Positions 2,134-52,442 of a DNA stretch of 52,442 nucleotides are shown here, one piece after another. The stretch covers positions 1-52,442 of IMG/VR virus record IMGVR_UViG_3300034378_000127; one strand, written 5' to 3'. The DNA comes from a virus. Numbering within the stretch: the stretch's first letter is position 1; every line of letters starts with the position of its first letter. Position numbers and translations under genes: made by a program. The notes beneath the pieces were generated by a model. It had not been told where the DNA came from, did no database searches, and saw only the letters and a list, made by a program, of their open reading frames with translations.

Positions 2134-2198
2134 GTCTGTTTGTAAATCACCTACAATATTTTAAATCCTGTTTGCGCCGAGTTTTTAAGTTTTTGTTT

Positions 2199-3413: not shown

Positions 3414-3515
3414 TATAAATCCATTTTTATAAAATTGTAGTATTAAGTTTATATTTTTAAATTAATTTCTTTTGTTTTTCGGCGCAAACCTATAATCCAG
3501 TGGTTTACAAATTGC

Positions 3516-3542
3516 AAACAACTAGAGGTTATATGAACCTCT
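3516..3542 (-). other. Array entry point: attI-like or junction site
   Basis: On the minus strand a perfect hairpin AGAGGTT-CATAT-AACCTCT (3542-3524), which overlaps the stop codon of the phage gene at 3541-3753, is followed by A and GTTGTTT (3522-3516). From there on the sequence looks like the start of a cassette (TTTGTAAACCA, then TTATAGG). It marks the boundary between phage core and cassettes. Whether it works as an attI, a secondary integrase site or a simple terminator stem is inference. Confidence 0.4.
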
Positions 3543-3753
3543 ATTTTTTATAAATCTTTCTTATCTTCTTACTTATCAATGGTTTAACTATTTTCATTGG
3601 TTCCTCAAGACTCAAATAAAATTCTCTTATTTTTCTTCTCCGGATTTCTTTACGCCATCTGGAAATAAGCTCATCAAATGTTTTCAAACCGTAAAATTTT
3701 CGCCAATGATTCAACACGGCATGATTCTCAACGCTCAACGCAATAGTCTTCAT
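3541..3753 (-). CDS. Small basic protein (70 aa), last gene of the resolvase operon
   Basis: It starts ATG 3753 and overlaps the stop of the RuvC-like gene (ATGA), so it is probably translationally coupled. It is very basic, especially residues 30-45 (SRWRKEIRRRKIREF) and the C-terminal KKIRKIYKK, and predicted mostly helical. It may bind nucleic acid. No family is recognised. It is the last phage-core gene before the cassette array. Confidence 0.6.
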   Translation of the reverse strand: MKTIALSVENHAVLNHWRKFYGLKTFDELISRWRKEIRRRKIREFYLSLEEPMKIVKPLISKKIRKIYKK

Positions 3754-4238
3754 AACACGCCTGCTTTCCAGAATCCCATACCAACGGCGTCAGCTTCATG
3801 CTGTCTATATCTTCTACCATTAATCCGCTCGACGCGTAGAACCATCTTTCTTTCATTGAGTTGACCGAGCCATTTTGGATCAACGAGAGTAACTTTTTTA
3901 TTATACCGTTCACACATATTCCAATAACCACCTATCAGATAAGCTAATGTATCAAGTGAACCGGATAATGAAACTCTTGTACCAAAAACTGTTGGCAAAT
4001 GTCTAACACTTTCAATCCAAACTTCATCTATTTTTTTATTAAGCGTTCTTATTAGAGCCCCAAACTGTAACCACATACTGCACATTCTCTCCCCTTGTGT
4101 AGAAACTCTTCTCTTATTTCTCTCTGGATGGATAAGTCCTGTCATTGGATGTTTATCACCATGAAAAACTGCCCATCCTGTGTTACCGATGCCAGGATCA
4201 ACGAACATTGCTTTATCAGGATATTTAATTATTTGCAC
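3750..4238 (-). CDS. RuvC-like Holliday junction resolvase
   Basis: A 162-aa protein with the RNase H-fold signature of RuvC resolvases: DPGIGNTGWA with Asp14, EVWIES with Glu76, and HEADA with His147/Asp150 near the C terminus. These supply the acidic metal-binding residues that cut four-way junctions. In phages such enzymes resolve recombination intermediates and branched DNA before packaging. The start is GTG 4238 (an internal ATG at residue 11 is possible). It overlaps the helicase gene by 14 nt, suggesting coupled expression. Confidence 0.85.
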   Translation of the reverse strand: MQIIKYPDKAMFVDPGIGNTGWAVFHGDKHPMTGLIHPERNKRRVSTQGERMCSMWLQFGALIRTLNKKIDEVWIESVRHLPTVFGTRVSLSGSLDTLAYLIGGYWNMCERYNKKVTLVDPKWLGQLNERKMVLRVERINGRRYRQHEADAVGMGFWKAGVL

Positions 4239-5637
4239 GATTATGCATTCCGTTTATGATTGCTTTTAATTGCATATTACGTTTTTCTTTTCGCCGAAGC
4301 GATTTAACAATATCTTCATCAACAGAATTCTCGATAACCAAATCAATTATTAATAATGAATCTGTCTTACTGACATCAACAAACCTATCCTCCGTCTGCT
4401 GGCGGGTCTCCAGACCGCAGGGACTCGAATAATAAATCATAGTTGCTGCGCACGAGAGATCGACACCATGCCGAAAACATTCAGGCTGGCAGATGATTGT
4501 TCTGAGGGCACCATCGAAGAACTGTTTTCGCATCTCGTTTCTTTCTTGTGGTTTCACTTGCCCACAGATGACTGCTGAAGAAATCTTGTTTCTCGTAAGT
4601 TCACTATGGATAGCGAGTATCTCATCGATGAAGACCGCCCAGATAATTACCTGCTCATTGCGAAGCTCGCCGGTCAGCAGGTCAATCAACGCTCTCATCT
4701 TCGCGAGTTGAATTAGCTTCCCCTCTACCAATCCACCGCAGATTCTTCTCAGCCAGATGAATGCAGTAGTCGCGTATAAGGTCTTATCCACTTCCTGACC
4801 GTCAATCTCGAGCACGAATGACCGCTCGACTTCGTCGTAGGTCTTTCGCGCTTTACTCGAAAGTTCTACCTTCGCGAGTCGGTGAATCTTTTCACCGCCG
4901 AGATTGACGTCCTTTCGCGCCAGGAAGTGACAATGCTTATGTAACGCTCGGGCGAGGCGCTTTCGTCCTTCAGAATGTATGAACCATCGAGAACCATCGG
5001 AAGCAGGCGTGAAGTTGTTATGGCGCCACGCATAATATATTGACTCGCTAAGTATATCAGGTGAAAGAAATTTCAATTGACAAAAATATTCGAGTTCGCT
5101 TTCTGGCGCAGGCGTTCCACTGAGGATAGCTTTATACGGAACCTGTTTGAAGTTCTTTAAATAAAATTCGGTAACTTTGGCATCAGGTGATTTTATAAAT
5201 GTACTTTCATCAATTATAATAGCATCCCAATCAACGTACTTGATATCTTCAATGACTTGCCAACCTTCTTTATTTAATAAGTTAAATTGAGCTTTTGACC
5301 AAAGCGCATTTAACCGCTTAGATTTCTCTCCTATTAAGTATGCGATGTTTTGTATGCCTTCCTCCTTTAGTGCTATTTCCCAGCCTTCTAAGGCGCTGTA
5401 CGAGGAGACTATAAGCACTCTCTTTATTTCAGAAATAGATAATAACCAACGTATGATGATTAAAGTTTTACCAAGTCGCATATCTACGAAAAGAGCGACC
5501 AGTTTACGTTTCAAACAATACTCAAGTATCTCAATTTGATATGGTCGCATTTTCTTCAAAGAAAGCGGACGCGAGGCGTCCACTGGAGAAGCCTTACTAC
5601 CTCGCGTCCTAAGGGCGGCAGGAGGCGTCATACTCAC
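4225..5637 (-). CDS. SF2 (SNF2-like) DNA helicase
   Basis: A 470-aa superfamily 2 helicase: motif Q region MRPYQIEILEYC from residue 30, Walker A MRLGKT (residues 53-58), DEST box at 143-146, motif III SGTPAPES, and motif VI TRQQTEDR near the end of the second RecA lobe. It resembles phage SNF2-type helicases used in recombination-dependent replication or branch migration and sits next to the resolvase. The start is GTG 5637 (GTGA overlap with the upstream stop) or ATG 5631. The first 29 residues are low complexity and encoded by a GC-rich inverted repeat, so translation might instead begin at Met30. Confidence 0.85.
   Translation of the reverse strand: MSMTPPAALRTRGSKASPVDASRPLSLKKMRPYQIEILEYCLKRKLVALFVDMRLGKTLIIIRWLLSISEIKRVLIVSSYSALEGWEIALKEEGIQNIAYLIGEKSKRLNALWSKAQFNLLNKEGWQVIEDIKYVDWDAIIIDESTFIKSPDAKVTEFYLKNFKQVPYKAILSGTPAPESELEYFCQLKFLSPDILSESIYYAWRHNNFTPASDGSRWFIHSEGRKRLARALHKHCHFLARKDVNLGGEKIHRLAKVELSSKARKTYDEVERSFVLEIDGQEVDKTLYATTAFIWLRRICGGLVEGKLIQLAKMRALIDLLTGELRNEQVIIWAVFIDEILAIHSELTRNKISSAVICGQVKPQERNEMRKQFFDGALRTIICQPECFRHGVDLSCAATMIYYSSPCGLETRQQTEDRFVDVSKTDSLLIIDLVIENSVDEDIVKSLRRKEKRNMQLKAIINGMHNRANN
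5567..5609. repeat. GC-rich perfect 10-bp inverted repeat
   Basis: GGACGCGAGG (5567-5576) and CCTCGCGTCC (5600-5609) can pair around a 23-nt loop. The segment is strikingly GC-rich for this AT-rich genome and encodes the dispensable-looking N terminus of the helicase. It could be a small inserted palindromic element or an RNA hairpin controlling helicase translation. Confidence 0.6.
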
Positions 5638-6188
5638 TTACCGCCGGTGAGTTTTTTGAGTTTTTCTTTTGTTACCATTTTTCCATTATATCGAAACAAC
5701 TGAAAAATCTTGTCTTTCTTCGCAAGTTGAACATTAATATTAGATCGAACAAGTGACATTTTATATTTTTCAGTTGGAAACAAGTCCTTACCAAACTTCG
5801 CTTGAACTTTCGCAATGATTTCTTCATCTGTATATTTACGCTCAAGCGAAAGAGCACGAACAAGGGACTTGATAGTTATGGGTCGACCAGTTTTTTCTTC
5901 AGTCGATTCCTTTGTTATCTTCTTAACTGGTTTATTCTTCTTTTCAGTTTTTTCATTCATTGTCTCCTTGGCCTTTGCATCCTTCTTGGCTGCTGTTCGT
6001 TTTTTCGCCACTTCTTCCTCCTCAGTTAAATGAAATAACGTCGGTATTCCCCTAAAATATCCAACTGCTTTAAGCTGTTGCTTTAATGCATCTTGTGATT
6101 TTGCTATACCTTCGCATCCTTTATATTCCCACAAAACGCGAGGTTGATTATCTGACCAACGTACAGCCTCGACAACCAAATCTCTCAT
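5634..6188 (-). CDS. Unknown protein with Lys/Glu-rich linker (184 aa)
   Basis: The start was chosen at ATG 6188 because the extended Shine-Dalgarno GGAGGCGTCA lies just upstream (the frame is open to 6209). The N-terminal domain (about residues 1-60) begins MRDLVVEAVRWSDNQPRVLW. A highly charged Lys/Glu linker follows, then a C-terminal helical domain (TIKSLVRALSLERKYTDEE...). The layout suggests two small domains on a flexible tether, possibly nucleic-acid binding. It overlaps the helicase start. No family recognised. Confidence 0.65.
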   Translation of the reverse strand: MRDLVVEAVRWSDNQPRVLWEYKGCEGIAKSQDALKQQLKAVGYFRGIPTLFHLTEEEEVAKKRTAAKKDAKAKETMNEKTEKKNKPVKKITKESTEEKTGRPITIKSLVRALSLERKYTDEEIIAKVQAKFGKDLFPTEKYKMSLVRSNINVQLAKKDKIFQLFRYNGKMVTKEKLKKLTGGK

Positions 6189-6215
6189 AATTTGACGCCT
6201 CCTTTTCATTTAAAA

Positions 6216-6416
6216 TTAAAATATGCTGTCAATCCAATGCTTATTCAGCATGTGATTTTGAGCGGCTATAGATGCATTTATTTCCGATTGTGATAAAAAC
6301 TCGAAATCCTGTGAAGATGAGAAGTCTTCAACAAAACCTTCGAAACCGCAATTCTTGCAGACGACTGTTTTATTGTCAAGTGATTTTAGATTATACGATG
6401 AACATTCTGGGCACAT
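6216..6416 (-). CDS. Zinc-ribbon protein (66 aa)
   Basis: It begins MCPECSSYNL and continues TVVCKNCGF, giving two CxxC knuckles 16-17 residues apart, the classic TFIIB/transcription-factor-type zinc ribbon. The C-terminal half is acidic and helical. The ribosome binding site is AAGGAGACGTC. Such small ribbons in phage early operons may bind DNA or RNA or the host polymerase; the role here is not determined. Confidence 0.7.
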   Translation of the reverse strand: MCPECSSYNLKSLDNKTVVCKNCGFEGFVEDFSSSQDFEFLSQSEINASIAAQNHMLNKHWIDSIF

Positions 6417-6442
6417 TATTCCGACGTCTCCTTATATTAATT

Positions 6443-6628
6443 TTATTTTTTCTTTGTTAATTTATTGGTATCAATATAGATAAAACCATATTGATTCTGC
6501 ATCGTTAATCTTATTTTTGCAATGCCTTTATCGTCTATTGATTTGACAATACCACAATATGTACAATACCGACCAAACTTAAACTGCCTTCTCCAATATA
6601 CAGAGTCATTTATTTTAATTTCATTCAT
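6443..6628 (-). CDS. Small beta-barrel-like protein (61 aa)
   Basis: It starts ATG 6628, overlapping the upstream stop by one base (TAATG). The pattern of alternating hydrophobics (MNEIKINDSVYWRRQFKF, then YCGIVKSIDDKGIAKIRL) resembles SH3/KOW-like barrels. One CTYC pair is present. It lies in the promoter-proximal part of the operon from 6959 to 3541. Function unknown. Confidence 0.6.
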   Translation of the reverse strand: MNEIKINDSVYWRRQFKFGRYCTYCGIVKSIDDKGIAKIRLTMQNQYGFIYIDTNKLTKKK

Positions 6629-6807
6629 TATGACGCTTCCACATTAATAATTTTAAAATCAGCCATCTCAAGATTTGTCAATAAATGATTCGCGAATCTT
6701 GCATTCTCATCATCAGTCAAATGCTTGTTAAATGCTTCATAAGATGAGTCTCGAATTATTTCTAATAATAAATCTAATTCTGCTTTTGTGAATTCCATTC
6801 TTTTCAT
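6628..6807 (-). CDS. Small unknown protein (59 aa)
   Basis: This short gene runs ATG 6807 to TAA 6630-6628, behind the extended Shine-Dalgarno GGAGGCGTCAGA. The protein starts MKRMEFTKAELDLLLEII and is acidic and helical. Its start overlaps the previous gene's stop (ATGA) and its stop overlaps the next start (TAATG), so it is embedded in a tightly coupled operon. This is strong evidence that it is translated. No family recognised. Confidence 0.7.
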   Translation of the reverse strand: MKRMEFTKAELDLLLEIIRDSSYEAFNKHLTDDENARFANHLLTNLEMADFKIINVEAS

Positions 6808-6959
6808 TCTGACGCCTCCTCTGTGTAAGGTTTTATTTTATCACGAACTTCTTGCAAATCTTTATGGTCATCACAGGCTACCCATCCTTCCTCAGTCATA
6901 ACATGAAACGAACCATCTGCATGCTTTACAACATAACCAATTTTGTGTTGGGATTTCAT
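6804..6959 (-). CDS. Small unknown protein (51 aa), first gene of the operon
   Basis: It runs ATG 6959 to TGA 6806-6804 with Shine-Dalgarno AAGGAGGCGTCAAG. The protein begins MKSQHKIGYVVKHADGSFHV with a likely small beta-sheet, then an acidic helix. It is the first gene after the promoter at 7011-7039 and overlaps the next gene by four bases. No family recognised. Confidence 0.7.
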   Translation of the reverse strand: MKSQHKIGYVVKHADGSFHVMTEEGWVACDDHKDLQEVRDKIKPYTEEASE

Positions 6960-7010
6960 CTTGACGCCTCCTTATTGAATTGTGGATTTCTCTCTTGCTC
7001 TCTATTATAT

Positions 7011-7039
7011 ATTATATATGATTTATAGCAAAAAATCAA
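7011..7039 (-). promoter_or_regulatory. Sigma70-type promoter for the 6959-3541 operon
   Basis: Minus strand: -35 TTGATT (7039-7034), 17-nt spacer, -10 TATAAT (7016-7011). Transcription would start near 7004, about 45 nt before the first start codon. It is the best promoter match in the window and lies directly upstream of a coupled operon. Confidence 0.75.
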
Positions 7040-7112
7040 GTATTTTCTTAGCTAATTTTCTAACTCTTTAAAAATCAATAAGTTATAATTTCATATTTTC
7101 ACTAATTTCAGC

Positions 7113-7260
7113 ATTTTAATACAAAATTAATACACTTTTAATACAACAAACTATCACTATATATTTATATTATAATTTACAAATAATAATATATAAATAT
7201 AAAAAAGGCAAATGTATATATACATTTGCCATATTAAAATTGTATTAAAACTGTATTAAA
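7113..7260. repeat. Iteron region A: 11-bp-phased TTAATA / TATTAA repeats
   Basis: TTAATA occurs at 7116, 7127 and 7138, and the inverted TATTAA at 7232, 7243 and 7254, every step exactly 11 bp (about one helical turn). The two arms flank an AT-rich core (TTATAATTTACAAATAA) and the terminator at 7201-7230. The same arms recur at 41889-42170 and one arm at 40340-40367. It is probably a protein-binding array (operator, activator or origin). The gene-free stretch 6960-7260 otherwise holds the promoter above and AT-rich DNA. Confidence 0.75.
7201..7230 (-). terminator. Rho-independent terminator at the end of the late operon
   Basis: Minus strand: a self-complementary GGCAAATGTATA / TATACATTTGCC hairpin (7230-7207) followed by TTTTTT (7206-7201). 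It lies about 30 nt after the stop of the last late gene (7261-7455), inside iteron region A. Confidence 0.85.
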
Positions 7261-7455
7261 TTATTTCTTTTTTTCCTTCTCCTTATCAACTTCGATTAAA
7301 GATTCTTTTTCTTTTTCAAGAATCTCAACCTTTTTCTTCAGTTCTTGATTTTCTCTAAGCAGCCTTGCACATTCATCTACGAGTCCACGTACATTGTTCT
7401 GCAAAGCAAGAATCTCACGCCCAATTTGTGAATCGATTGCTTCCAGTGACGGCAT
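7261..7455 (-). CDS. Coiled-coil protein (64 aa), last late gene
   Basis: It starts ATG 7455 behind CCAAGGAGGTTCAA. Residues 15-64 form a heptad-rich helix (LRENQELKKKVEILEKEKE) ending in a Lys/Glu tail. Possible roles are a fibre chaperone or adaptor, since it follows the tail fibre gene. No specific family recognised. Confidence 0.7.
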   Translation of the reverse strand: MPSLEAIDSQIGREILALQNNVRGLVDECARLLRENQELKKKVEILEKEKESLIEVDKEKEKKK

Positions 7456-7485
7456 TTGAACCTCCTTGGCTTTAATTGTGAATTG

Positions 7486-9174
7486 TTATACCCATTGCGC
7501 TAAAGCTGCAACGGATGCTCCAGTTGTTTGTGCTGTTAAGATACCACCAGTAAAAGTCAGCGTTATTCTCCAATTCGCTCCATCATCAAGTGTCAAAGTT
7601 CCTGTTAATCCATCACTACCATTAGCATTAAATATTGTATTTGCACGTACTTTCCCGTCAAAACGATATTCAGAAAGACCATCAAATGAAGCAGTATCAT
7701 TTGCATCCTTTCCCACGCCTATTTGCATCTGTTCAATGCCACCCGCGCCGGCGTTATAACCACTTATTTTCAATTCAGGAGTGTTTCCAGAAGCTACGTT
7801 ATTGAAAAGATGTACACTCTGTGCAGTTTGGACGCTATCTTGTAAATAAAGAACACTTATTGAAGATCCAGCTGTTGTGATATAATCATGTCCTCCGGAT
7901 TCATATAATTCTATACCGACTCCGGCTGCGGTGCCAAAAAATCCTTTACCTTCAGCATATAATGCATAATCGATATTAGATCCTGACTCGATATAAATAC
8001 CATAAGCAGAACCACTAGGATCAAAACCCGCATCTGCTTTAACATATAACCCATATAAGCTGCCACCTAAAGAATTTAATGAACCCAATGCCGATCTTGA
8101 ATAAATATACGTGCCAAGCACATCACTGCTTATATTACCAGCCTGTGCATAGCTCTCAATATATGATCCATATAAATTTGTAATAGTACCATTTATTGTA
8201 TTAACATAATTATAATCAGCTATTAAACTACCAATAGTACTACCACTATCATTCATCCGTGCAATATTATGAATACCATAGACATGATCACTTGCATCTG
8301 TAGTGCCAGCTATTTTAATATGAGAATTATATATACCATGATACGTAACAGTTGTATCCACAGCGTTATCTTGAATAAAGAGATGTTTATCTGTTGTAGG
8401 GGTAACTCCAATGCCAACATGACCAGTGAACTCAATATTATCTGATCTATCAATTATAACTGAATCGTCTGTGCCAACTCCAGTTCGACTAATCTTAAGT
8501 TTATCAGCATCGTCATCATCAAGACCTATAAACCAAGTACTTGCTCCAGAATTGCCTATTTCAAGATAAGAATCTGTAGTTCCATCTGGACTTAACACTC
8601 TTATAACAGAATCGCCAGTTCCACCACTAGTGATATGCAGAGTTGTATCTGTAGCGTCTGCTCTATTCACATGCAATGTTGCTGCTGGAGTGTTTGTTCT
8701 TATCCCTATATTGCCAGAACTTCCTTCAATGAAGAGTGCATTTGATACTGCATTAGCATTTGCGATAAAATCAATATCAACTTCTCCAGCGTTAAATTCT
8801 GCATAATCTGTTCCACCTTCAACGAAATCCCAGAACTCTACACTGCCGATCACAGTTGTTTTCCGGTCAGCACGCCATCTGTCATAGCTATCTGTGTCAC
8901 CCTGGTGGTAAAGATATTCTGATACATACAAATCATCATTTATAGTGACATCACCAAAATCATTATCGAGAAACGTAAATGCTGAGCCATCTGTGCTGTA
9001 TTTTTGTAGTGCCCCCACATATGTTTTAGTGTTATCATCATTCTTCCAGACGAATTCATCATATGGAAGTGCTGCCGTAACGTTGTTGACAATAGCTATT
9101 TGTCCATGGTCTGCATTTGCATAAATATTCGCCCAGGTGTCTTCGATATGTGTGATATGAACTTGTTGAGCCAT
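7486..9174 (-). CDS. Tail fibre / receptor-binding protein
   Basis: A 562-aa protein. The N-terminal part holds QQVHITHIEDTWANIY. The middle has repeated fibre-like units with the GI-(R/G)-TNTP and GIGVTPTTD motifs seen in many phage fibres, plus many short beta strands rich in Gly, Ser, Asp and Thr. The C terminus ends in a compact beta domain (LTLTFTGGILTAQTTG-like). I see no S74 autocleaving chaperone at the end. Its place after the tail-tip gene fits a host-binding fibre. Its start overlaps the stop of the upstream gene. Confidence 0.7.
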   Translation of the reverse strand: MAQQVHITHIEDTWANIYANADHGQIAIVNNVTAALPYDEFVWKNDDNTKTYVGALQKYSTDGSAFTFLDNDFGDVTINDDLYVSEYLYHQGDTDSYDRWRADRKTTVIGSVEFWDFVEGGTDYAEFNAGEVDIDFIANANAVSNALFIEGSSGNIGIRTNTPAATLHVNRADATDTTLHITSGGTGDSVIRVLSPDGTTDSYLEIGNSGASTWFIGLDDDDADKLKISRTGVGTDDSVIIDRSDNIEFTGHVGIGVTPTTDKHLFIQDNAVDTTVTYHGIYNSHIKIAGTTDASDHVYGIHNIARMNDSGSTIGSLIADYNYVNTINGTITNLYGSYIESYAQAGNISSDVLGTYIYSRSALGSLNSLGGSLYGLYVKADAGFDPSGSAYGIYIESGSNIDYALYAEGKGFFGTAAGVGIELYESGGHDYITTAGSSISVLYLQDSVQTAQSVHLFNNVASGNTPELKISGYNAGAGGIEQMQIGVGKDANDTASFDGLSEYRFDGKVRANTIFNANGSDGLTGTLTLDDGANWRITLTFTGGILTAQTTGASVAALAQWV

Positions 9175-9563
9175 TATGCGTTCTCCTCAATGAATTTCCG
9201 AATTTTATTGATGTAGATTTCTAATTTCTTCTCTCCTAAGTCTCGCTGCGCTTTTGCTTCGAAAGATGCTAAAAGCTTCTCTGTCAGCTTTTTCTTATAT
9301 ATAGCGGAGTTAATCGCTTCAAGAGATTTCTCTTTTTCTTCTTGAGAGACAAATGATTTTTCAACTGATTTTTTAGCAGCTTTAATTTCATCATCGACAC
9401 GTTTTTTTAAACTGCTTTTATTAACGCCTTTCTTGGATTCCGCTGCAGTTTCATCAAGCAAAGTAAAATGTTTCCAATCTTTGACAGTCTCATTACCATC
9501 TAAGTCTCTGAGAATAGACTTTGGATGTTTCTCAAAAGTAATAGTAATAGATTGTAGTTTCAT
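9174..9563 (-). CDS. Helical late protein (129 aa)
   Basis: Start ATG 9563 was chosen for its Shine-Dalgarno TTGGAGG; the frame extends four codons upstream to a TTG. The N terminus forms beta strands (MKLQSITITFEKHPKS); the rest is Lys/Glu-rich helix, likely coiled coil. It sits between the large tail-tip protein and the fibre, and overlaps the fibre gene start. It could be a tail adaptor or assembly factor; no family recognised. Confidence 0.65.
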   Translation of the reverse strand: MKLQSITITFEKHPKSILRDLDGNETVKDWKHFTLLDETAAESKKGVNKSSLKKRVDDEIKAAKKSVEKSFVSQEEKEKSLEAINSAIYKKKLTEKLLASFEAKAQRDLGEKKLEIYINKIRKFIEENA

Positions 9564-9577
9564 TTTTTCCTCCAAGT

Positions 9578-12500
9578 TTACATTTGATCTAATTTATCTC
9601 TGTTATCACCATATTCGGTTGTCGTATCCTGCCAATCTCTATCATCCCCAAATAAATTCATGACATCCTGAATATCAAATTCCTCCGGGATTGTCTCACG
9701 TTTCATTATTGCATCGATAGTAATCAGATAAGGCGGATTTGGATTAAATTCTGCTTTAAATAAAATACATTCTATCGTTACTCCATCAGTCTGGTGAGGC
9801 AAAGTAATCGAGAACTCATGTCCTTCCTCCCAAGTATGAGCTGTCGTGTAGTGTACTTTGAATTGAATTCTTGGATTAAACATCCAGCTGATTCTTGTTG
9901 CAATATTATATTCTGCAATCGCATCAGCATCTTCACCGTTTGCCCAAAGTAATTCAGATAAATCTTTCGGAAACTTTCCTATTTCATGTACTCGTTTGTA
10001 TAGCTCATTACACTGGTTCCAATATTCCTCGGCCAGAAATGGGCTCGAAATCCCTTCAACATAATTACTATTATAAGTTGAAGCACCTGAATTGATGAAT
10101 CTGATAATCTCTTGATTCTTTTTTGCTCCTATGCTGTATTGATAATCGACAAACGGTTCTGGAAATACCTCTGATGGATTTGGTTCTGTAATTTTTATTG
10201 ATGTCCTATCAATAATGTCTGCAAGTGTCAAAGCGTCTGATGGATTAGTAGTTTCTTTAATAAGTCGCTTCACAGATTCAAATCCGTTTTTATCAATCCA
10301 ATTGATGAGAAACAAATCCCGACAAACTGAACGTTTCAACGAATCAGAATAGGCTTCACCTCGGTCAGTTATCACACGGGCAATTGAATATAGATCAGCC
10401 CACGTTTTCAAATCTTCATCTTCAAAAGATCCTTCTGCCCAAATATAACCGCTAGTATACGAATATGTGAGATTTGCATCCATTGTAATAATAGCAAGAC
10501 TGATGGAACTTATCGTTGCTTCTTCCCGGTTGACGCCATCAGTGATTATTACCCGTTGGTCTATCCTGAACGTCGCAGCTTCCGCGATCGTTGTCGTTGT
10601 TATTGTGTTCACGCCACTGGTAGCAATTGTGCCTTTCGAAACATTTATCAGCGCATTTTCCGCGTAATTCTTTCCCCAGTCTACTGAGGGAGGATCAGGA
10701 ATGCCGCTTGAAGGAGGATCGGAGACATCACTGTAATTCTGGAGACGACTGACATGCTCCATCAGATCAAGCGGTGAGCTCATCATATCTGTCGAAGTTT
10801 TCCTTCCGAGCCACGTATCGTTGAATACTCTACCAGCCATTGGACTATATAATTCTCGTCCGAGGGGTATACTGCGCTCGAAGACGAACGCAATCTCGCA
10901 AATATCTAAAAATGTCGTCGACTGAGCAGGAGCATCTCTGTCGGTATTCCACATAATAATTGTGTGATTAATAGCTCTATATAAATCTTCATTCGTAACA
11001 GAAGGCATCTCTAGTTTTTCATGACCATATTCTGCTTTCCTAAAACAATCGTATGCTAGATTGAAGTAAAAGGGCTTGTCGTATCGTGGAGGATTATCCA
11101 AAAAATAAAAATCAGGGAGGAAAGACACATCAGCAGAAGTTGGGTAGCAGGTAAGACTCAGGTCAGCTGCCAGTGGAATATTAGCTATCTGAGTATAAGC
11201 TCCAATGAATCTTCGTTGATATACATTAACAAATCCACTATTGCTATCATAATTAGACATAAAGAGAAGATATGTCTTTTTTATCTTATATCCCGTTGGA
11301 AACTCTGGAGGAAATATTTTCAATACAACGATTCCCTCATCATCGACTCCATGAAAAAGAATATTTCTAAGATAAGTATTAGAATATTTGTCCATTATAT
11401 TAGCAATCGATCCAGAGGTTGACCAAGTAGTACCGCCAAGCCTCCAGAATCCTGGTGAAACATAAACAAAACCCAAACCAATAAAATGTGGATCAATTGT
11501 TCCTAATTCGGTTGAATCCCCATAATATTCAATACTTGCAGGAGGTTTGATTATATAACCAGTAAGATAGCTAGGATTACCTTCAAATAATTTAGCTACA
11601 ATCACTACTCGGTTTTTGTCTCCATCGCCACTATCATCATAAGCATACTGTGGAAGTCTCTCATATGTGATTGGAATTTCATCTATATCCGCATCGGTGT
11701 TCTCAGTTGTAACTTTTGCTATCTTTTTCGATTGATAACTTGTCATGTAGAATGCTCTTGATATCGCTGTGCCATCAATATCGAGATAGTCTTTACACGG
11801 CCAGACATCGCACTCGTATTCATTCGTAATTGTATAAAAACTAATCCATGTTTGTTCACTATCACTTCCATTCCAATTTCCTCTTAAATGGCTACTGAAT
11901 ATCGTATCGATTGTCAATTCGATTCGAGAAGTACCCTTTGTAGAATCCAAATTAACAGTAGCGGCAGTGATTTTCCTATATTTTCCTACTGTCTTGTTTC
12001 CCGATTGATTGTTCTCAACTACTTTGATATACTTCCCGACGAAATAATCCAACGAATGCTGTCCTGTTAATCCAGGAATGCCATTCTGTTTCCAAGTAGG
12101 CAGACCATCTTCTCCGTAAATTCTTACTAGATATTTTTCTGGCGAGTCAGATAGTTGAAACACTCTAGCGTATCGTGCTGGATCATATGTCGCACCCAGA
12201 TTTGTTTTCATCGTCAATTGATTAACAGAAATGCTCTGTATTTCACCTCCCTCAATACTACTAGTGTCTTTCAAATAAACCAAATCTCCTATTGAGAATT
12301 TTGAACCATCTTCGACGTGTACTATCTTCTGTCCTCCAGTAGCTGCGATAGTTAAATCAGATGAGATACTATCGCCAACAATAGGAAAGACCGACTGTTG
12401 GAGCATGTAATCATCGGCAACTTCAAATTCGATATTTGTCGCTGAATCAAAAACTCTATTTTGTAAATGTCTGTAAACTTCTTCGATATGTCCGATGCGA

Positions 12501-13291
12501 AGAAATTTCGTATATGAATTATAATCAATGTTTCCTTCTGTATCAAATTTCGGAAGATGCTTTCCAAACGTTAGGGGAACAACTTGTCCTCTTGCTTCTT
12601 CATCAGCATCGGGATAATTAATTGCGGTGATTATTGTTGATAAATTAGAACGACGTTTATTTTGCATCCCTCTGAATCGAATCTCATATCGAGTTGCATC
12701 CCATGTTGGCTGTTCACAGATACCGTGCCACTTTGGTAATTTGGTACTATCCTCAAATTCGAATATGATAGCATGACAACCATTCAGATAAATGCTTTCA
12801 TCGCTCAATTTCTGTTGAAATTGATTTGTGTTTTTAACAGTAACGCCTCCCGTGCCTCCAGTTGCGATCTCGCCTCCCACCAGAATATCAATATTTCGGC
12901 TCCAAACCATAATGCCATTTTCAACTATCATGTTGGCATTCCAATTTGATACGCCACTGACAGTGTTTTGTATCCAACGAAATCGGCTATTACCATCTGC
13001 CTTTCCGTTAAGTGTACCTTGATATGTGTTAGATAGATTATTCATCAAATACAAAATATTCCCGAGGATACGGACAATGTAATTGATCTCCTCATTATTG
13101 TCATCTCTAATTCTTATAATGTCTCGTTGAGAAAAAGAGCTTCCATCCACAACAGTGATATAATTATTACCTGAGGGTTGCGTACCATTAAGGGCAGACG
13201 TAACGTTGTAAAGACCTACCGATGTGTCTTGCGAGGCAAGAGAGAGGTGATCTTCGAGTGAAATTTCAACGCCAAAGACCCTTGTAGCCAT
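9578..13291 (-). CDS. Large tail tip / baseplate protein
   Basis: At 1237 aa this is the longest chain in the window, mostly beta. It follows the tape measure and a 289-aa distal-tail-like gene, the position of the central tail hub or tip protein in long-tailed phages. The N terminus begins MATRVFGVEISLEDHL. The sequence shows no peptidase or glycosidase motif that I can identify. The function rests mainly on size and gene order, so the exact role (hub, J-like tip or wedge) is uncertain. Confidence 0.65.
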   Translation of the reverse strand: MATRVFGVEISLEDHLSLASQDTSVGLYNVTSALNGTQPSGNNYITVVDGSSFSQRDIIRIRDDNNEEINYIVRILGNILYLMNNLSNTYQGTLNGKADGNSRFRWIQNTVSGVSNWNANMIVENGIMVWSRNIDILVGGEIATGGTGGVTVKNTNQFQQKLSDESIYLNGCHAIIFEFEDSTKLPKWHGICEQPTWDATRYEIRFRGMQNKRRSNLSTIITAINYPDADEEARGQVVPLTFGKHLPKFDTEGNIDYNSYTKFLRIGHIEEVYRHLQNRVFDSATNIEFEVADDYMLQQSVFPIVGDSISSDLTIAATGGQKIVHVEDGSKFSIGDLVYLKDTSSIEGGEIQSISVNQLTMKTNLGATYDPARYARVFQLSDSPEKYLVRIYGEDGLPTWKQNGIPGLTGQHSLDYFVGKYIKVVENNQSGNKTVGKYRKITAATVNLDSTKGTSRIELTIDTIFSSHLRGNWNGSDSEQTWISFYTITNEYECDVWPCKDYLDIDGTAISRAFYMTSYQSKKIAKVTTENTDADIDEIPITYERLPQYAYDDSGDGDKNRVVIVAKLFEGNPSYLTGYIIKPPASIEYYGDSTELGTIDPHFIGLGFVYVSPGFWRLGGTTWSTSGSIANIMDKYSNTYLRNILFHGVDDEGIVVLKIFPPEFPTGYKIKKTYLLFMSNYDSNSGFVNVYQRRFIGAYTQIANIPLAADLSLTCYPTSADVSFLPDFYFLDNPPRYDKPFYFNLAYDCFRKAEYGHEKLEMPSVTNEDLYRAINHTIIMWNTDRDAPAQSTTFLDICEIAFVFERSIPLGRELYSPMAGRVFNDTWLGRKTSTDMMSSPLDLMEHVSRLQNYSDVSDPPSSGIPDPPSVDWGKNYAENALINVSKGTIATSGVNTITTTTIAEAATFRIDQRVIITDGVNREEATISSISLAIITMDANLTYSYTSGYIWAEGSFEDEDLKTWADLYSIARVITDRGEAYSDSLKRSVCRDLFLINWIDKNGFESVKRLIKETTNPSDALTLADIIDRTSIKITEPNPSEVFPEPFVDYQYSIGAKKNQEIIRFINSGASTYNSNYVEGISSPFLAEEYWNQCNELYKRVHEIGKFPKDLSELLWANGEDADAIAEYNIATRISWMFNPRIQFKVHYTTAHTWEEGHEFSITLPHQTDGVTIECILFKAEFNPNPPYLITIDAIMKRETIPEEFDIQDVMNLFGDDRDWQDTTTEYGDNRDKLDQM

Positions 13292-35924: not shown

Positions 35925-38243
35925 TTAATCTTCTACTATCGGCAACGCGACACACCGGCAATTTATAACGTTTCCTGCTTGGCCTCTGGGATCAAGTGGA
36001 TAGCGTAAATCATTCGAGAAGTAAGCACCGACGTTTTGTCTCTCACCGTCAATTGCATGATTGAACAAAGAATCAGGTGGTCGACGCACAAGCTCATCTC
36101 CTGCGCTCAGCCATTCATGCGTCCGAATATCGCTTGCCCGAAAAGCATCAAAGCGGCTCATTCCACTGATGCTACCTGTCTCTGTGCGAGCGAACCGTAT
36201 GGAGCGTGCAGGAGTCATCTTATCGACTCCCTGCTGAATTCCTGTCTTAAGGGCTTTTGCATATTGTTGCGGTGTCCAGTTCTCTTCAATCGCCTGTGTG
36301 GTGATTTTAGAAACGATTTTCCGAGATGAGTTATGCGTAAATGTATTAACTTCATGCAACTTATCTGCACGTGCTTTGACGAGTTTCTTTACATTGTCTT
36401 CTGTGACGCTCCACTGTATAACAGCACCATAATCCTGTTTGAGCTTTTTCAGTTCACGCTTCATCTGCTTTGCCGTCTCGGGAGTATAGCTTCTGACAAG
36501 ATCCTCATCTGCCAAAGCGAGATCAAATAAAAATGCTGTGGGGTCAACAACGAGCTGTCGTATAAATTGCACGGATCTCTGTTGCTCCTTGAGCCATTTA
36601 TCCACATTATCAAGCATTTCATTCCGCAACCGTATACTATGACGCACGAACATAGTACGCATTGATTTCTCCCCAGGATCAAGCACAGCTCGTACATAAC
36701 TCTCCCAGAGAGCTTGCCGCTCTTTACGGTTTTCTCTTGCTGATGCAACTTCGATTTCTTTCACAAGCTCTTTTGTGACAGGCAATTCTTTCCGCTCGAT
36801 TTTGTTTTGTAAAGCATTAGAGAGAATGTTAAGCAAGTGTTGTCGCTGAGGCTTTTCTGCTGCGGCACCTGGAGTAGAAATAAACCCTTCGGCAAGAGTG
36901 GCAATATCAATAAGTGTCATCGGAACGAACTTCTGCTTGAGCCATGGATAAGCATCAACATCAATCGGCACTTGTGCTACACGAAACGCCTCAGCTGCCG
37001 GCACATCCATTTGCCACATCTTATGAGCCGTATCGACTTTCTCCGTATGGCTCTCCTGTAGAGCCTCGACATTTGATTTATCAGATTTGCCACGTAAATT
37101 GCCAGTGCCTATGTATTGAATCCATTTGCCGTTCACTGAGTTCCAAATTCGTTCATCAAGCGGAATGCGTGTTTTCTGCCATACGCTACGGTCTGCCTGT
37201 TCGGCTGTGGCACGGTTCATACCTTTTTCATAAATGCCTATCTCTTCCTCGTTCACGCCATACGCGGCTTGAATTCGTAAACGATTATCAGTGCGCTGCT
37301 CCATGTATTGCATATCGACATTCGAGCGCATGAACTGCTCATACTTAAGCCCATGAGCAAGTGCCACGGTACGACCAGCGTTTCCAGCACCCGAGTACTC
37401 TTCGTTCCACTTCTCCTCGTATTGCCTGAGTTCCTCAAAGTCAATTGTGTCATTCTCTGTGGTGAGCAGACCTCCAATCGCCCCGAAGTTGTCAAGGAAA
37501 GCAGTATTAAACTCATCTGCTTTCATATCGAGATTGACTGGAATCTGCGCTGCTGTATACGGTGACATTCCCTGTGCCGGATTGTAAGGATTCGGTAATC
37601 GAATGCGGATAAGTTCACCGAATTCAAACTCCATAACATCTTTACCACCGACAACCATTTTCCATCCAGTAAGCACTTTTGTATGCCGATGATAACGTGG
37701 CTTTATTACGTGGTCTGAGTATGGCCAAATTTCGGCGGGGATTTGTCCTTTTCGCAAATCGACTCTTTTCCCTTTGACACCTGATTCAAGATACCAGAAA
37801 CATTGTCCGCCTGGAGTTGCTGCCGTGGGCAGTAGAAGATTAAGTAATGTATAATCCCATAAGTCTGTGCCTGACATCAGTGGATTAGGATTTAAGAACA
37901 ATTCGAGAATCTCATGTTCCTTAAATATCTTCTGCTCATCATTGACATCGTATAAAACTCTTGGTAAAGCGGAAATCGGTTGCATCACTCGGTTTATTGC
38001 AGCATACGTCCAACTATGAAATTGATAAGGTTTTGAAGTTACTATACTATATCCAGAGGAGATTCTTGTACCTCTGAGGAATTGTGGATCAAGATTCGGT
38101 GTCACTCCTCGTTGAACGGGATTGACGGGATTCCCTACTGCATCCAAGAGTACCGGAACATTTTGTACTTGACGAAGTGCCTCCTGTGCTGCAAATACAG
38201 CAAGTGTCGCTTGTGTCACAGCTTTTGTAAAACTATTCATCAT
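35925..38243 (-). CDS. Portal protein fused to MuF-type minor head protein
   Basis: 772 aa. The N-terminal two-thirds resemble HK97-family portals (SRVLYDVNDEQKIF, LNPNPLMSGTDLW, WYLESGVKGKRVDLRKG, QIPVNLDMKADEFN). The C-terminal ~250 residues resemble MuF: ARTETGSISGMSRFDAFRAS, HEWLSAGDELVRRPPDS, ending NVINCRCVALPIVED with the NCRC signature. In many phages these are separate genes. The portal forms the DNA-entry ring; MuF proteins are minor head proteins. It overlaps terL by four bases. Confidence 0.88.
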   Translation of the reverse strand: MMNSFTKAVTQATLAVFAAQEALRQVQNVPVLLDAVGNPVNPVQRGVTPNLDPQFLRGTRISSGYSIVTSKPYQFHSWTYAAINRVMQPISALPRVLYDVNDEQKIFKEHEILELFLNPNPLMSGTDLWDYTLLNLLLPTAATPGGQCFWYLESGVKGKRVDLRKGQIPAEIWPYSDHVIKPRYHRHTKVLTGWKMVVGGKDVMEFEFGELIRIRLPNPYNPAQGMSPYTAAQIPVNLDMKADEFNTAFLDNFGAIGGLLTTENDTIDFEELRQYEEKWNEEYSGAGNAGRTVALAHGLKYEQFMRSNVDMQYMEQRTDNRLRIQAAYGVNEEEIGIYEKGMNRATAEQADRSVWQKTRIPLDERIWNSVNGKWIQYIGTGNLRGKSDKSNVEALQESHTEKVDTAHKMWQMDVPAAEAFRVAQVPIDVDAYPWLKQKFVPMTLIDIATLAEGFISTPGAAAEKPQRQHLLNILSNALQNKIERKELPVTKELVKEIEVASARENRKERQALWESYVRAVLDPGEKSMRTMFVRHSIRLRNEMLDNVDKWLKEQQRSVQFIRQLVVDPTAFLFDLALADEDLVRSYTPETAKQMKRELKKLKQDYGAVIQWSVTEDNVKKLVKARADKLHEVNTFTHNSSRKIVSKITTQAIEENWTPQQYAKALKTGIQQGVDKMTPARSIRFARTETGSISGMSRFDAFRASDIRTHEWLSAGDELVRRPPDSLFNHAIDGERQNVGAYFSNDLRYPLDPRGQAGNVINCRCVALPIVED

Positions 38244-39598
38244 CTTCCCATTATCATTTTATCGAGGGCACTTGTTGTTGTTTCAGCTTGCTTTTTATCT
38301 TCACGTTCTTCAAGATCCCTGCTCGTTATCATCATCGGTTTCAGAGATATCATATCATTCTCCCATGCGTAACCAAGAGAATCGACAGAATGATTGTCTC
38401 GGTCAACAGGCACGGGAAGAGTATTGCCAAAGCGATCTTTCTGCCACTGATATGTACTGAACTCATTGATGGTATACTGACAACTCTTATCGATGATCCA
38501 TCGTTGCTGTTGCATCCACTGTATTCTGAAGAGAACTGCTGAGCCTTTCCCTTGTGCAAGTCCTCCGAACAATCGTCGTTTCTTGCCTGGATGAGCGTTG
38601 ATTTTATACTGCCGCAGTTCTGCAATTGACTTTGGTTCAGCACTGTCACACCAGACGATTTCCTTCCCGCAATATGGTTCAATCTTTGCTGCGATAATAT
38701 CGTTCGTGCATCCATGCTCATAGATTTCTTTTGTAACGTAAATCGTGTTGCGTCCATTGTATCGTCCTGTGCCTGTACCTCGTGCCGATTTTGTGTATGC
38801 AAAGGGGTCTGCCGCGTAGCCAAAGTCAAGTCCATGTTTGTAAAGAGGAAAGTCGATTGTCGATAAGTCCTCTGTGTCCCAGTTCTTGAATATGAGATCA
38901 CCAAGCGTGCCCCACTTGCCAAGTCCGTATACGTTGAAGTAGAATGGATCTGTGTGTTTGAAGGATTCAATTCTTTCGATGTCTTCCTTATCAAGAAACT
39001 CATTATCTTTGTAGGTTGTCTTAAGAATAGCGACTTTATCAGTACGTTTCTCTCCTTCAATATCTTGTCCATTGAAAAAGCGTTTGCATATCCAGTGCAA
39101 TCTCGATATTGGATTAAAGCTGAATGTAACGCGCTTTGGCACTGGAGCTCTACCACGTAATCTGAGTAGCAATTGATTGAAAGCTGGTTCTGAGATTTCT
39201 GTTGCCTCCTCGACCCAAATATCTGTAATAATTCCTTTCTTCGGTTTAATTGATTTGAGCTTCTCAGGATCATCCAATCCTCTGAAAAGCATCTGTTGTC
39301 TTGTAGGAAGATAGGTGATGGATAAATCACTGAGGTTGACTTGAAAAGCTCGGGCGACACCAAATGATTCAATTGTCTCAACCACCTGATTGAAGACGGA
39401 AGAGCGAAGTGTATTCGCGATGTTTCGTACAATGAGGTAATTGCGTGGATAGCGAAGAACATCGAGCACAACACGTTGAGCAAGAAAATGTGACTTACCA
39501 CTGGAGCTACCACCATAGAGGATTTGTAGAGGTGTTTGGTCGTCAAGATATTTTTTATAAACTTCATTAAAAATTTCACTGTGGACTATTAATTCCAT
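38240..39598 (-). CDS. Terminase large subunit
   Basis: 452-aa packaging motor: Walker A GGSSSGKS (29-36), Walker B IWVEEATE (127-134), then nuclease motifs HGLDFGYAADP (Asp), EIVWCDSAEPKSI (Asp) and DRDNHSVDSLGYA (Asp). The order matches PBSX/Terminase_3-like large terminases. ATP-driven DNA translocation and genome cutting. No Shine-Dalgarno precedes ATG 39598; the structured element at 39615-39686 lies there instead. Confidence 0.92.
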   Translation of the reverse strand: MELIVHSEIFNEVYKKYLDDQTPLQILYGGSSSGKSHFLAQRVVLDVLRYPRNYLIVRNIANTLRSSVFNQVVETIESFGVARAFQVNLSDLSITYLPTRQQMLFRGLDDPEKLKSIKPKKGIITDIWVEEATEISEPAFNQLLLRLRGRAPVPKRVTFSFNPISRLHWICKRFFNGQDIEGEKRTDKVAILKTTYKDNEFLDKEDIERIESFKHTDPFYFNVYGLGKWGTLGDLIFKNWDTEDLSTIDFPLYKHGLDFGYAADPFAYTKSARGTGTGRYNGRNTIYVTKEIYEHGCTNDIIAAKIEPYCGKEIVWCDSAEPKSIAELRQYKINAHPGKKRRLFGGLAQGKGSAVLFRIQWMQQQRWIIDKSCQYTINEFSTYQWQKDRFGNTLPVPVDRDNHSVDSLGYAWENDMISLKPMMITSRDLEEREDKKQAETTTSALDKMIMGR

Positions 39599-50735: not shown

Positions 50736-50795
50736 CCACAACGTCCGATGCATGGCCGATGTATGTACTCATATTTCGGCCTGCATTTGTTGTAC
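50736..50795 (-). other. attC-like recombination site 10
   Basis: Minus strand: R'' GTACAAC (50795-50789), 2-nt spacer, arm ATGCAGGCCG (50786-50777), loop, arm CGGCCATGCAT (50758-50748) with one extra A, 5-nt spacer CGGAC, R' GTTGTGG (50742-50736). 60 bp with full geometry. The methyltransferase stop codon lies inside it. It closes the array. Confidence 0.85.
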
Positions 50796-51503
50796 GCTGT
50801 TTTCAGAATCTCCACCAGTGCTGTTTTCGCCCTGGTCGAACAAAGACAATTGCGCTTGAGCATCTCGAAGCCGATTGCGGGCTATGTTTACATACTCTAA
50901 CTCTTGTTCTATGCAAATAAACCTGCGATTAAGAGCGTGGCAAGCCAATGCTGTTGTGCCACTACCAGCAAACGGGTCCAATACTAAATCATCCGGTTTC
51001 GTAAATAACTCCAAGCACCATTTGAATAAAGGCACTGGTTTTTGTGTGGGGTGGCATTTACCATCGCACTTGTTTATATAGGAATCAGCGCGGCTCATGT
51101 CAAAAATGCGAATTGGTTTATCGTTTGCGCTTGTCCACGCGATTTCACCATCAGTCATATACCCGCGCTGAATTTTGTTCCAAACAAGCCAGCAGCTACT
51201 TTGTGGCAACCGCATATAGTTGCCGCCCCACATTATTTGGTTTTGACTGACGCGAAGCATCTCTGTAATAACCTCAATATCTGGTGGCGCATTGTCCCAT
51301 TCATAGCAAGCATACCTCTTCCATCGACCACTATTAGAAACGCGGCCCGAATCACTTATTTGGTTTTGCGCCACATCATAACCGATACCGTAAGGAGGAT
51401 CAGTCAAAACCAAATCCACGCTCTTGTCACCAAGCTGCTTTAGAACCTCGTAGCAATCGGCGTGTATGATTTTACCGACCATGTTTTCTATTGTGTATTT
51501 CAT
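50769..51503 (-). CDS. Cassette 10: DNA methyltransferase (N4/N6 class)
   Basis: 244-aa DNA methyltransferase with DPPYG at 35-39 in LVLTDPPYG, later GKCHPTQKPV target-region pattern and AdoMet motif LVLDPFAGSGTTALA. C-terminal linker is Gln/Asp-rich. The order (DPPY first, then FAGSG) indicates the beta class. The stop (50771-50769) falls in the R''-side arm and loop of attC site 10. Leader box ATTTATAG lies upstream of ATG 51503. The likely role is protecting phage DNA from restriction. Confidence 0.88.
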   Translation of the reverse strand: MKYTIENMVGKIIHADCYEVLKQLGDKSVDLVLTDPPYGIGYDVAQNQISDSGRVSNSGRWKRYACYEWDNAPPDIEVITEMLRVSQNQIMWGGNYMRLPQSSCWLVWNKIQRGYMTDGEIAWTSANDKPIRIFDMSRADSYINKCDGKCHPTQKPVPLFKWCLELFTKPDDLVLDPFAGSGTTALACHALNRRFICIEQELEYVNIARNRLRDAQAQLSLFDQGENSTGGDSENSVQQMQAEI

Positions 51504-51515
51504 AAGGGCGAAAAC

Positions 51516-51525
51516 CTATAAATTA
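51516..51525 (-). promoter_or_regulatory. Conserved cassette leader box
   Basis: Minus strand TAATTTATAG, 13 nt before the methyltransferase start and 22 nt downstream of the R' region of attC site 9. Matches the boxes at 69-78 and 2048-2057. Confidence 0.4.
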
Positions 51526-51542
51526 AAAATTCTGAAAATGGC

Positions 51543-51624
51543 GTACAACGGGTTGCCAAACGGACGCTTTACAGTACACTAATCAAACAGGCTGCCCTGT
51601 ATTGCGCTCCTTTGGCTGTTGTGT
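51543..51624 (-). other. attC-like recombination site 9
   Basis: Minus strand: R'' ACACAAC (51624-51618), 1-nt spacer, arm GCCAAAGGAGCGC (51616-51604), loop with AGGGCAGCCTG, arm GCGTCCGTTTGGC (51567-51555) with one extra G, 5-nt spacer CAACC, R' GTTGTAC (51549-51543). 82 bp. Very similar arms to site 3. Confidence 0.85.
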
Positions 51625-51645
51625 TTTGTAAAGTTGCCCACAATA

Positions 51646-51849
51646 TTAATCTTCAGCGGGCGGGTTATAATTAATTACTGGCTGCAATAGGTCAGCAAAA
51701 GTTAAGTTACCAGCCTCTATTTCATCTATAATTTTATTTCCAACTTGTTTAAAATCGCCAATTGTTTTAAGCCCATTATCATCACACACTTTCTTGGCAG
51801 CATCCTTGACAACACTAAACTGTTCTTTTGACAAATTTCTATAAGCCAC
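51646..51849 (-). CDS. Cassette 9: small unknown protein (67 aa)
   Basis: Start GTG 51849 (MAYRNLSKEQFSVVKDAAKK) behind GAAAGGATC. Helical, acidic C terminus. It ends TAA 51648-51646, 22 nt before attC site 9. It has no recognised family; small helical proteins of this kind occur as cassette cargo. Confidence 0.6.
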   Translation of the reverse strand: MAYRNLSKEQFSVVKDAAKKVCDDNGLKTIGDFKQVGNKIIDEIEAGNLTFADLLQPVINYNPPAED

Positions 51850-51906
51850 TTTTTGATCCTTTCAGTTTAGCCCGCTGACTTCAATACCAGCAGGCAAGTT
51901 TATTGA

Positions 51907-51967
51907 ACACAACGTTTGCGCCTATACGATAGTACCGTTTCGGTATTTTGTATAGGCGCTGTTATGC
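51907..51967 (-). other. attC-like recombination site 8
   Basis: Minus strand: R'' GCATAAC (51967-51961) overlapping the TAA stop, 1-nt spacer, arm GCGCCTATAC (51959-51950), loop with its own small hairpin ACCGAAACGGT, arm GTATAGGCGC (51927-51918), 4-nt spacer, R' GTTGTGT (51913-51907). The 10-bp stem is perfect, so no extrahelical base is visible. Confidence 0.82.
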
Positions 51968-52222
51968 GGCGTTGGCCGTTTCCTTAGATTTCTGCGCTTG
52001 CAAAACCGGCATAACGATTTTCTCGTAGATACGAATCTGTTTTTCGTAATCGGCATCACCGCTGCCAACAATTGCAATGACTGTGCCAACATCTAACCCC
52101 CGCAATTTAGAATAAAGGGTGCGAACCTCGTTGTTGTAAAAAAAATGATTAGCCCACCATTTGCCATGATACTTTAAACAGTATGACATCAAATCGTGTT
52201 CCAAATCTGCAACAAAATGCAC
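51962..52222 (-). CDS. Cassette 8: small unknown protein (86 aa)
   Basis: Start ATG 52222 (MHFVADLEHDLMSYCLKYHG) behind GCAAAGGAGGCGTTGTGC, an extended Shine-Dalgarno resembling those in the phage operons. The chain contains WWANHFFYNNEV, then beta/alpha IAIVGSGDADYEKQI. Stop TAA 51964-51962 lies in the R'' box of attC site 8. No family recognised. Confidence 0.65.
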   Translation of the reverse strand: MHFVADLEHDLMSYCLKYHGKWWANHFFYNNEVRTLYSKLRGLDVGTVIAIVGSGDADYEKQIRIYEKIVMPVLQAQKSKETANAA

Positions 52223-52274
52223 AACGCCTCCTTTGCAAGCGCCTAATTTTTAAAGGCCAATGTGCGAAGCGAAC

Positions 52275-52355
52275 GCATAACGTCCGACACAGGCTGAAGT
52301 TGCGTCAAGCAATTTGGGCCGTAGCGACAGCGGAGCCAGCCTGTGTTTGTTGGGC
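52275..52355 (-). other. attC-like recombination site 7
   Basis: Minus strand: R'' GCCCAAC (52355-52349), 2-nt spacer, arm ACACAGGCTG (52346-52337), loop, arm CAGCCTGTGT (52296-52287), 5-nt spacer CGGAC, R' GTTATGC (52281-52275). 81 bp; R'' matches the RYYYAAC consensus exactly. The cassette-7 ORF ends inside this site. Confidence 0.85.
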
Positions 52356-52442
52356 GCTGTTCGCGTCCGCTCCGCTATCAACTTTCGGCTCACAGGTATC
52401 ATCGTAGAGCAAAATGTTCGACACCATCCATTCGTAACCGCA
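52305..52442 (-). CDS. Cassette 7 protein, C-terminal part (gene crosses window ends)
   Basis: Continues in frame from position 1: residues 15-59, starting CGYEWMVSNILLYDDTC and ending ATAQIA at TGA 52307-52305. Its last codons run into attC site 7. The protein has two cysteines and is otherwise unremarkable. If the window is not circular, this is a truncated gene end of unknown start. Confidence 0.55.
   Translation of the reverse strand, partial: CGYEWMVSNILLYDDTCEPKVDSGADANSAQQTQAGSAVATAQIA

Follow-up and report, generated by a model that had tools for sequence, protein, structure and literature searches.

The 52,442-base virus record analysed here, which we call the window, carries on its minus strand what is probably an integrase-less array of gene cassettes that use a variant of the attC site and are moved in trans by an integron-type recombinase. 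We read the array in this way because its sites exceed those of shuffled DNA, because circle tests, joined-end folds and module junctions at C|GTTG agree with such a reading, and because the site type recurs in phages without intI, with a cargo of methyltransferase and Lar-like genes and with published recombination of phage sites by IntI1 (PMC9892861). Counted against it are a canonical attC model that finds a single site, weakly, a search of 399 Pseudomonadota genomes that returned no integron with this site type, and the lack of a recombinase for these sites and of any relative of the phage with a different array.

Each unit is a single gene with a folded recombination site behind it. In the mechanism that we propose, excision of a unit as a circle would bring its two ends together, and the site would then fold into a long three-part stem made up of an inner hairpin, an R box of 7 bp (RYYYAAC/GTTRRRY) and an outer stem that is specific to the unit and lies past a conserved AA/CA mismatch. 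The circle would next be inserted at a further site of this kind by an integron-type tyrosine recombinase, which would cut R' between its G and TT, would be provided in trans by the host or by a co-resident element, and would presumably use a single-strand pathway. With cargo such as DNA methyltransferases and other small proteins, phages would be able to pass protection from host restriction to one another.

The array in its phage genome

Terminase, portal, head and tail genes identify the window as a tailed phage, and genes for DNA polymerase A, UDG and a PD-(D/E)XK protein are further markers of this kind. The array covers about 5.2 kb of the minus strand with about ten short genes, running from 3522 to 1 and then from 52442 to 50736. 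Its neighbours are RuvC-like resolvase and SNF2 helicase genes at one end, and genes for UDG, a nuclease and a Sak4-like protein at the opposite end; the RuvC-like Holliday junction resolvase gene lies close upstream of the array start, at 3750-4238. An open reading frame that crosses the record ends (ATG at 42, in frame to 52305) is consistent with a circular or permuted genome, although no repeat is common to the two record ends. The G+C content of the array genes is mixed, from 33 to 55%.

Searches with the PD-(D/E)XK, SNF2 helicase and DNA polymerase genes found no relatives, and the 80 terminase relatives (best 70%) carry no such array in the loci searched. The original prediction saw the phage as a carrier and shuttle of cassettes and expected related phages to have different cassettes at the same locus. 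No close relative of the window phage with a different array was found, and the window phage thus gives no direct sign of movement. Because of this, turnover is inferred from other contigs, and the shuttle role keeps its conditional standing in a record that holds no integrase. Rfam returned nothing for the window at E ≤ 5. BLAST of the array DNA against phages and plasmids returned only methyltransferase stretches and one 51-bp match, which falls inside a Flavobacterium acyltransferase gene and was set aside as a chance match. Leaders of the form TTTATAGKTYSSCGC stand shortly 5' of the start codon in several cassettes, on the window minus strand at about 3491, 2050, 820, 75 and 51520, and also at 5385 of L193, a phage locus described below; they could be a promoter or a translation signal. 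We dropped a reading of the leaders (TATAGGTTTG) as a Bacteroidota promoter that would name the host, because many genes have strong Shine-Dalgarno sequences.

Recombination sites and cassette units

We scanned for AACA...CGTT with a stem in between, using motifs taken from the attC sites of known integrons and not from the window. The sense strand of the array contains six sites, every one with a stem score of at least 8, at 2133-2075, 1430-1375, 52355-52275, 51967-51907, 51624-51543 and 50795-50736. Shuffled controls (n = 300) have a mean of 0.2 sites at a score of at least 7 and never more than two. Outside the array, where the two strands together amount to 94 kb, the same scan yields five at this score, scattered and mostly with longer loops. 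Covariance model R3 was built from 15 sites of the window type, four of them from the window itself. Its seven best matches over both strands of the 52 kb are the six scan sites and 167-96, among which only 51624-51543 (site C), 52355-52275 (site A) and 167-96 were excluded from its training set. If accepted as attC, these amount to seven sites in 5.2 kb without an integrase. R'' (RYYYAAC) and R' (GTTRRRY) bound a hairpin downstream of a single gene, with variable R positions that are looser than the consensus in several window sites. Repeated sites of the form R''-stem-loop-stem-R' do separate single minus-strand genes where the original prediction had placed them.

The strongest support for a cassette nature comes from a circle test. 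In a cassette array, R'' should pair with the first bases of its own unit, because these two ends meet only in the excised circle. In circle form, R'' does complement the R' end with which its own cassette begins, and in window units 2, 3, 4, 10 and 11 the end-to-start pairing extends over 18-23 nt with 15-20 matches. It reaches about 14 bases past the R boxes, beyond the conserved AA/CA mismatch. Eight pairings in the window score at least 11, compared to a mean of 0.7 and a maximum of 3 in shuffles (n = 100); four of the eight correspond to certain unit ends, with scores of 17, 17, 17 and 13. A score of 17, the highest, also occurs in 1 of 100 shuffles, so no pair decides the matter by itself and the weight lies on the number of pairs and on a pooled test. 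Pooled over 14 contigs, at least 9 of 14 positions beyond R match in 26 of 68 adjacent pairs, compared to 0 of 68 within-site controls and 13 of 458 controls with other units. Joined-end folds of units 2, 3, 10 and 11 have z values of -3.7 to -10, compared to -0.7 to -3.0 for the linear sites. The conserved flanks read GTTRRRY-G-M-A-A-T at the unit start and A-C-A-K-C-RYYYAAC at the unit end, and therefore form a 2x2 AA/CA mismatch between the R box and the outer stem.

The array starts with an R'-like GTTGTTT at 3516-3522, whose reverse complement AAACAAC is exactly the R'' (2133-2127) of the site that ends cassette 1; this site, 3522-3516, could be an insertion point. Cassette 1 (2081-3521; ORF 3413-2199) has its first base directly after the G, pairs 7/7 in the R box with its own start, and encodes an N6_N4 DNA methyltransferase with an Mrr-like C-terminal stretch. 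It is followed by site E (2075-2133; scan; R3 50.5 bits, in the training set). Cassette 2 (1685-2080; ORF 2031-1708), recognized by its ORF and circle pairing, encodes a Cys-rich small protein and ends in site 2 (1679-1873), in which R'' CACCAAC at 1873-1867 and R' at 1685-1679 enclose the gene end in a loop; here circle pairing is 20/23 and the circle fold has z -5.1. Another Cys-rich small protein is encoded by cassette 3 (1381-1684; ORF 1653-1438; circle pairing 15/18), with site F after it (1375-1430; scan; R3 48.5 bits, in the training set). Cassette 4 (830-1380; ORF 1324-887; circle pairing 19/21) combines a Dam-like N6-adenine methyltransferase gene (product matching Dam PF05869 at E 4e-6 and phrog_111 at E 7e-18) with a hairpin that has a degenerate R'. 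Cassette 5 (489-829), a Cys-rich small protein known from its ORF, has a weak site without scan support, and cassette 6 (239-488) has a small ORF, 418-257, with its stop within R'' AGCTAAC and weak circle pairing (13/17, score 9). Where units 5 to 7 begin and end is uncertain, and the assignment of 489-167 is ambiguous.

A site close to the beginning of the record (96-167; R3 15.1 bits, E 0.087, held out) overlaps a terminator-like hairpin (176-145) that has a T-run. Across the record ends lies cassette 8 (1-101 and 52281-52442), defined by the ORF from 42 to 52305, and after it site A (52275-52355; scan; R3 17.9 bits, E 0.014, held out), the sole match of the canonical models. Cassette 9 (51913-52280; ORF 52222-51962; ORF and scan) encodes a small protein with its stop in R'' and is followed by site B (51907-51967; scan; R3 38.6 bits, in the training set). 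Cassette 10 (51549-51912; ORF 51849-51646; circle pairing 17/21), also a small protein, ends in site C (51543-51624; scan; R3 24.0 bits, E 2.5e-4, held out). Cassette 11 (50742-51548; ORF 51503-50769; circle pairing 19/21, z -10) encodes an N6_N4 DNA methyltransferase whose stop lies inside the site; the last site, D (50736-50795; scan; R3 46.9 bits, in the training set), precedes the UDG gene. These units change some details of the first description: site 2, graded there as reduced, is instead long (~195 nt), and site 4 has a degenerate R' (CTTAAAT). The stop codons at 51962 and 257 do fall in R'' as described, whereas the one at 1708 does not, the gene end being inside the loop of site 2.

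Other carriers and comparison with known integrons

A degenerate pattern derived from the window sites gave six hits over IMG/VR, mostly no more than the chance number. One hit belongs to G001, a contig of 213 kb whose first 13 kb contain at least 16 such sites; this is a jumbo myophage with tail sheath, terminase, endolysin and ribonucleotide reductase genes. In L193 (the first 20 kb of G001, IMGVR_UViG_3300037461_000428), at least 16 cassettes lie at one contig end, at 3798-12541, and the G+C content of the G001 array region is 0.37, compared to about 0.30 across most of the remainder. Two further patterns led to more contigs, so that clustered sites are now found in 14 contigs, the window and 13 other viral contigs. 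G004, G005, G006 and G007 have phage terminase, portal, polymerase or helicase genes; the viral status of L225-L228 and L233-L236 is that of the IMG/VR classification, and the carriers are mostly metagenome fragments. In the other arrays, 36 of 42 units have their gene in sense orientation. In the 39-kb phage contig G006 (L221/L222, 17939-26100) there are at least ten near-uniform sites, RTACAACAGCGANTATG...CATANTCGCAAACGTTGTRY, a uniformity that resembles a chromosomal integron, while the window sites are mixed. R3 also detects sites that were kept out of its training, both in G006 and G007 and in eight contigs added later. It has three matches (E 0.003 to 0.14) in nine integron-bearing genomes, one (E 0.028) in 0.9 Mb of other phage loci, and none under strict filters in the 399 Pseudomonadota genomes, among which no bacterial integron with the window site type was found.

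For the canonical type we built model R1 from the sites of integron loci in 80 bacterial contigs fetched with an IntI query. It recovers 130 sites in 51 sources, including the three sites of TJE1, which is the published number, and the M16-3 sites; a second canonical model, R2, was built from these 130 sites. An attC covariance search with at least six hits had been named as support for the original prediction, but our own canonical models match site A only and weakly, with E 1 (R1) and 0.21 (R2). R2 has no match in P12002L and part of PH101, so its reach is limited, and failure of a canonical model would not alone exclude attC. In 54 adjacent pairs of canonical sites, 3.56 of the four variable R positions match, compared to 2.19 in controls, and pairing stops at R, with 4.5 of 14 matches beyond it compared to 3.8 in the control. 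In canonical sites the bulged base is always on the 5' arm (22 of 22), and it is on the 3' arm in all four window sites that have one, in 9 of 9 sites of G001 and in two each of G002 and G005. Strand choice in attC is set by a bulged base on the L'' (5') arm, and the window sites have none there. Judged by sequence, they are not of the canonical attC type sampled here, in which the integrons compared are from Gammaproteobacteria and a few Burkholderiales only.

The sedentary chromosomal integrons of Gammaproteobacteria (Shewanella, Marinomonas, Vibrio and others) resemble the window array in their R boxes, AACA/CGTT context and bulged-base hairpin, in the pairing of R'' with its own cassette start, and in a cassette made of a gene and a downstream site. 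They differ in the absence of pairing beyond R, in the 5'-arm bulge and in an adjacent integrase. Phage-borne attC clusters with methyltransferases are already known from Qi et al. 2023 (PMC9892861). These CALINs, in TJE1, P12002L, PH101 and MW202573, are likewise integrase-less arrays in tailed phages, with DNA methyltransferase cargo, R'/R'' boxes and a G|TT crossover, but they are short (a minimum of two sites, three in TJE1), and the TJE1 sites fit the canonical model and have no outer stem. R3 has no match in five published phage records. P12002L may be a partial exception, with the same site type, among the published cases: it has outer pairing at 37263-38882, but its genes oppose the site direction. 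In this Polaribacter phage (L085, 29225-40764), the long inverted pairing surrounds the methyltransferase genes (37263-38038, 38087-38882) and includes an AA/TG-type mismatch. The Treponema chromosomal integrons, compared by description only, are similar in being non-proteobacterial and varied in site length, and T. phagedenis retains attC without intI (PMC3607928). Their sites are described with the usual R and L boxes and one protruding G, and no mention of an outer stem was found. A search of the open literature, with subscription papers outside its scope, found no description of the window site type, its outer stem or its mirrored bulged base.

Recombination, cargo and alternative explanations

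Module junctions in other arrays suggest where recombination occurs. In L192, one hairpin module is found before different leaders and one leader after different hairpins. In both arrangements the join falls at C|GTTG, and the leaders of L187 behave in the same way. The repeated modules of L192, at 3199-3273 and 4862-4936 and at 3585-3647 and 4587-4649, each occur twice in different combinations. These junctions place the crossover, in all likelihood, between G and TT of R', and the crossover side appears to be canonical despite the mirrored bulge. A site polarity reversed relative to the genes was ruled out, as the junctions lie at R' and not at R''. The window record has no match to TIGR02249 or PF00589 and no attI was identified; the array is thus not a complete integron with intI and attI beside it. 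None of the 14 carriers has intI, and a PF00589 search of 23 records found a tyrosine recombinase in only one carrier. Its XerD-like gene adjoins the array of L234 (717-1865, minus strand) and was not accepted as the enzyme, being present in one carrier only. The simplest reading is that the cassettes would move in trans.

The mirrored bulged base, the outer stem that canonical integrons lack, the 14 carriers without intI and the failure of canonical models could all mean that integron-like units are moved by a different enzyme, such as a divergent tyrosine recombinase or a hairpin-acting single-strand HUH-type transposase, and form a separate system. This is unlikely, as the R-box consensus, one gene per unit, the orientation and the G|TT junctions are integron features, and no common recombinase or transposase is found beside the arrays, PF00589 being absent in 13 of 14 (HUH families were outside this search). 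Still less probable is an ordinary bacterial array with canonical attC that was captured by a phage from its host and is now inert. Phage CALINs of the canonical kind are published and sites 4 to 6 look degenerate, but there are two consistent differences from canonical attC, and the site type recurs in unrelated phages with its pairing intact, which an inert relic would lose; compensated outer stems are already seen in many phages. We give very little credence to an immobile, tight operon of small phage genes with terminator or processing hairpins between them. Its genes would be co-oriented as they are here, and one hairpin, near 176-136, does have a T-run, but the remaining hairpins have none, unit-specific end-to-end pairing has no role in termination, and modules are combined at G|TT. 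An integrase-less cassette array thus remains our preferred reading, and the array may still be active. As an integron-style array, the original prediction is well borne out by the circle test, by the junctions at G|TT, by units of a single gene in one orientation and by mixed G+C; as an ordinary integron array it is not, given one weak canonical match, the outer stem and the mirrored bulged base.

In the window, two cassettes encode N6_N4 methyltransferases and one a Dam-like methyltransferase; the other products are small proteins, either Cys-rich or of unknown kind. In L233 (5640-9160), MT-A70, Dam and C5 methylase genes occupy three neighbouring units of one array, and L226, L234, L225 and L228 add N6_N4, MT-A70, RusA and a Lar-like restriction-alleviation protein. 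In 21 viral contigs that contain relatives of the cassette-1 enzyme, these genes do not lie in arrays. A cargo so rich in DNA methyltransferases fits, from the predicted products, the anti-restriction role that Qi et al. proposed for phage cassettes, and selection for this function may maintain it; some phage-borne attC sites were recombined by IntI1 in their published assay (PMC9892861). A broader proposal is possible, which we make tentatively: the sites, with their outer stem, AA/CA loop and mirrored bulged base, could form a distinct folded-site class through which many unrelated environmental phages would pool mobile anti-restriction and other small genes, moved in trans by some further recombinase.

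The site can be defined as GTTRRRY-GMAAT-stem at the unit start and stem-ACAKC-RYYYAAC-hairpin at the unit end. Such arrays may be overlooked because models trained on canonical attC can miss sites of the window type. The outer stem, which would form only in the excised circle, is a testable addition to the recognition of folded single-strand sites. If our reading is true, cassette exchange would serve phages too, and not bacteria alone, for swapping counter-defence genes.
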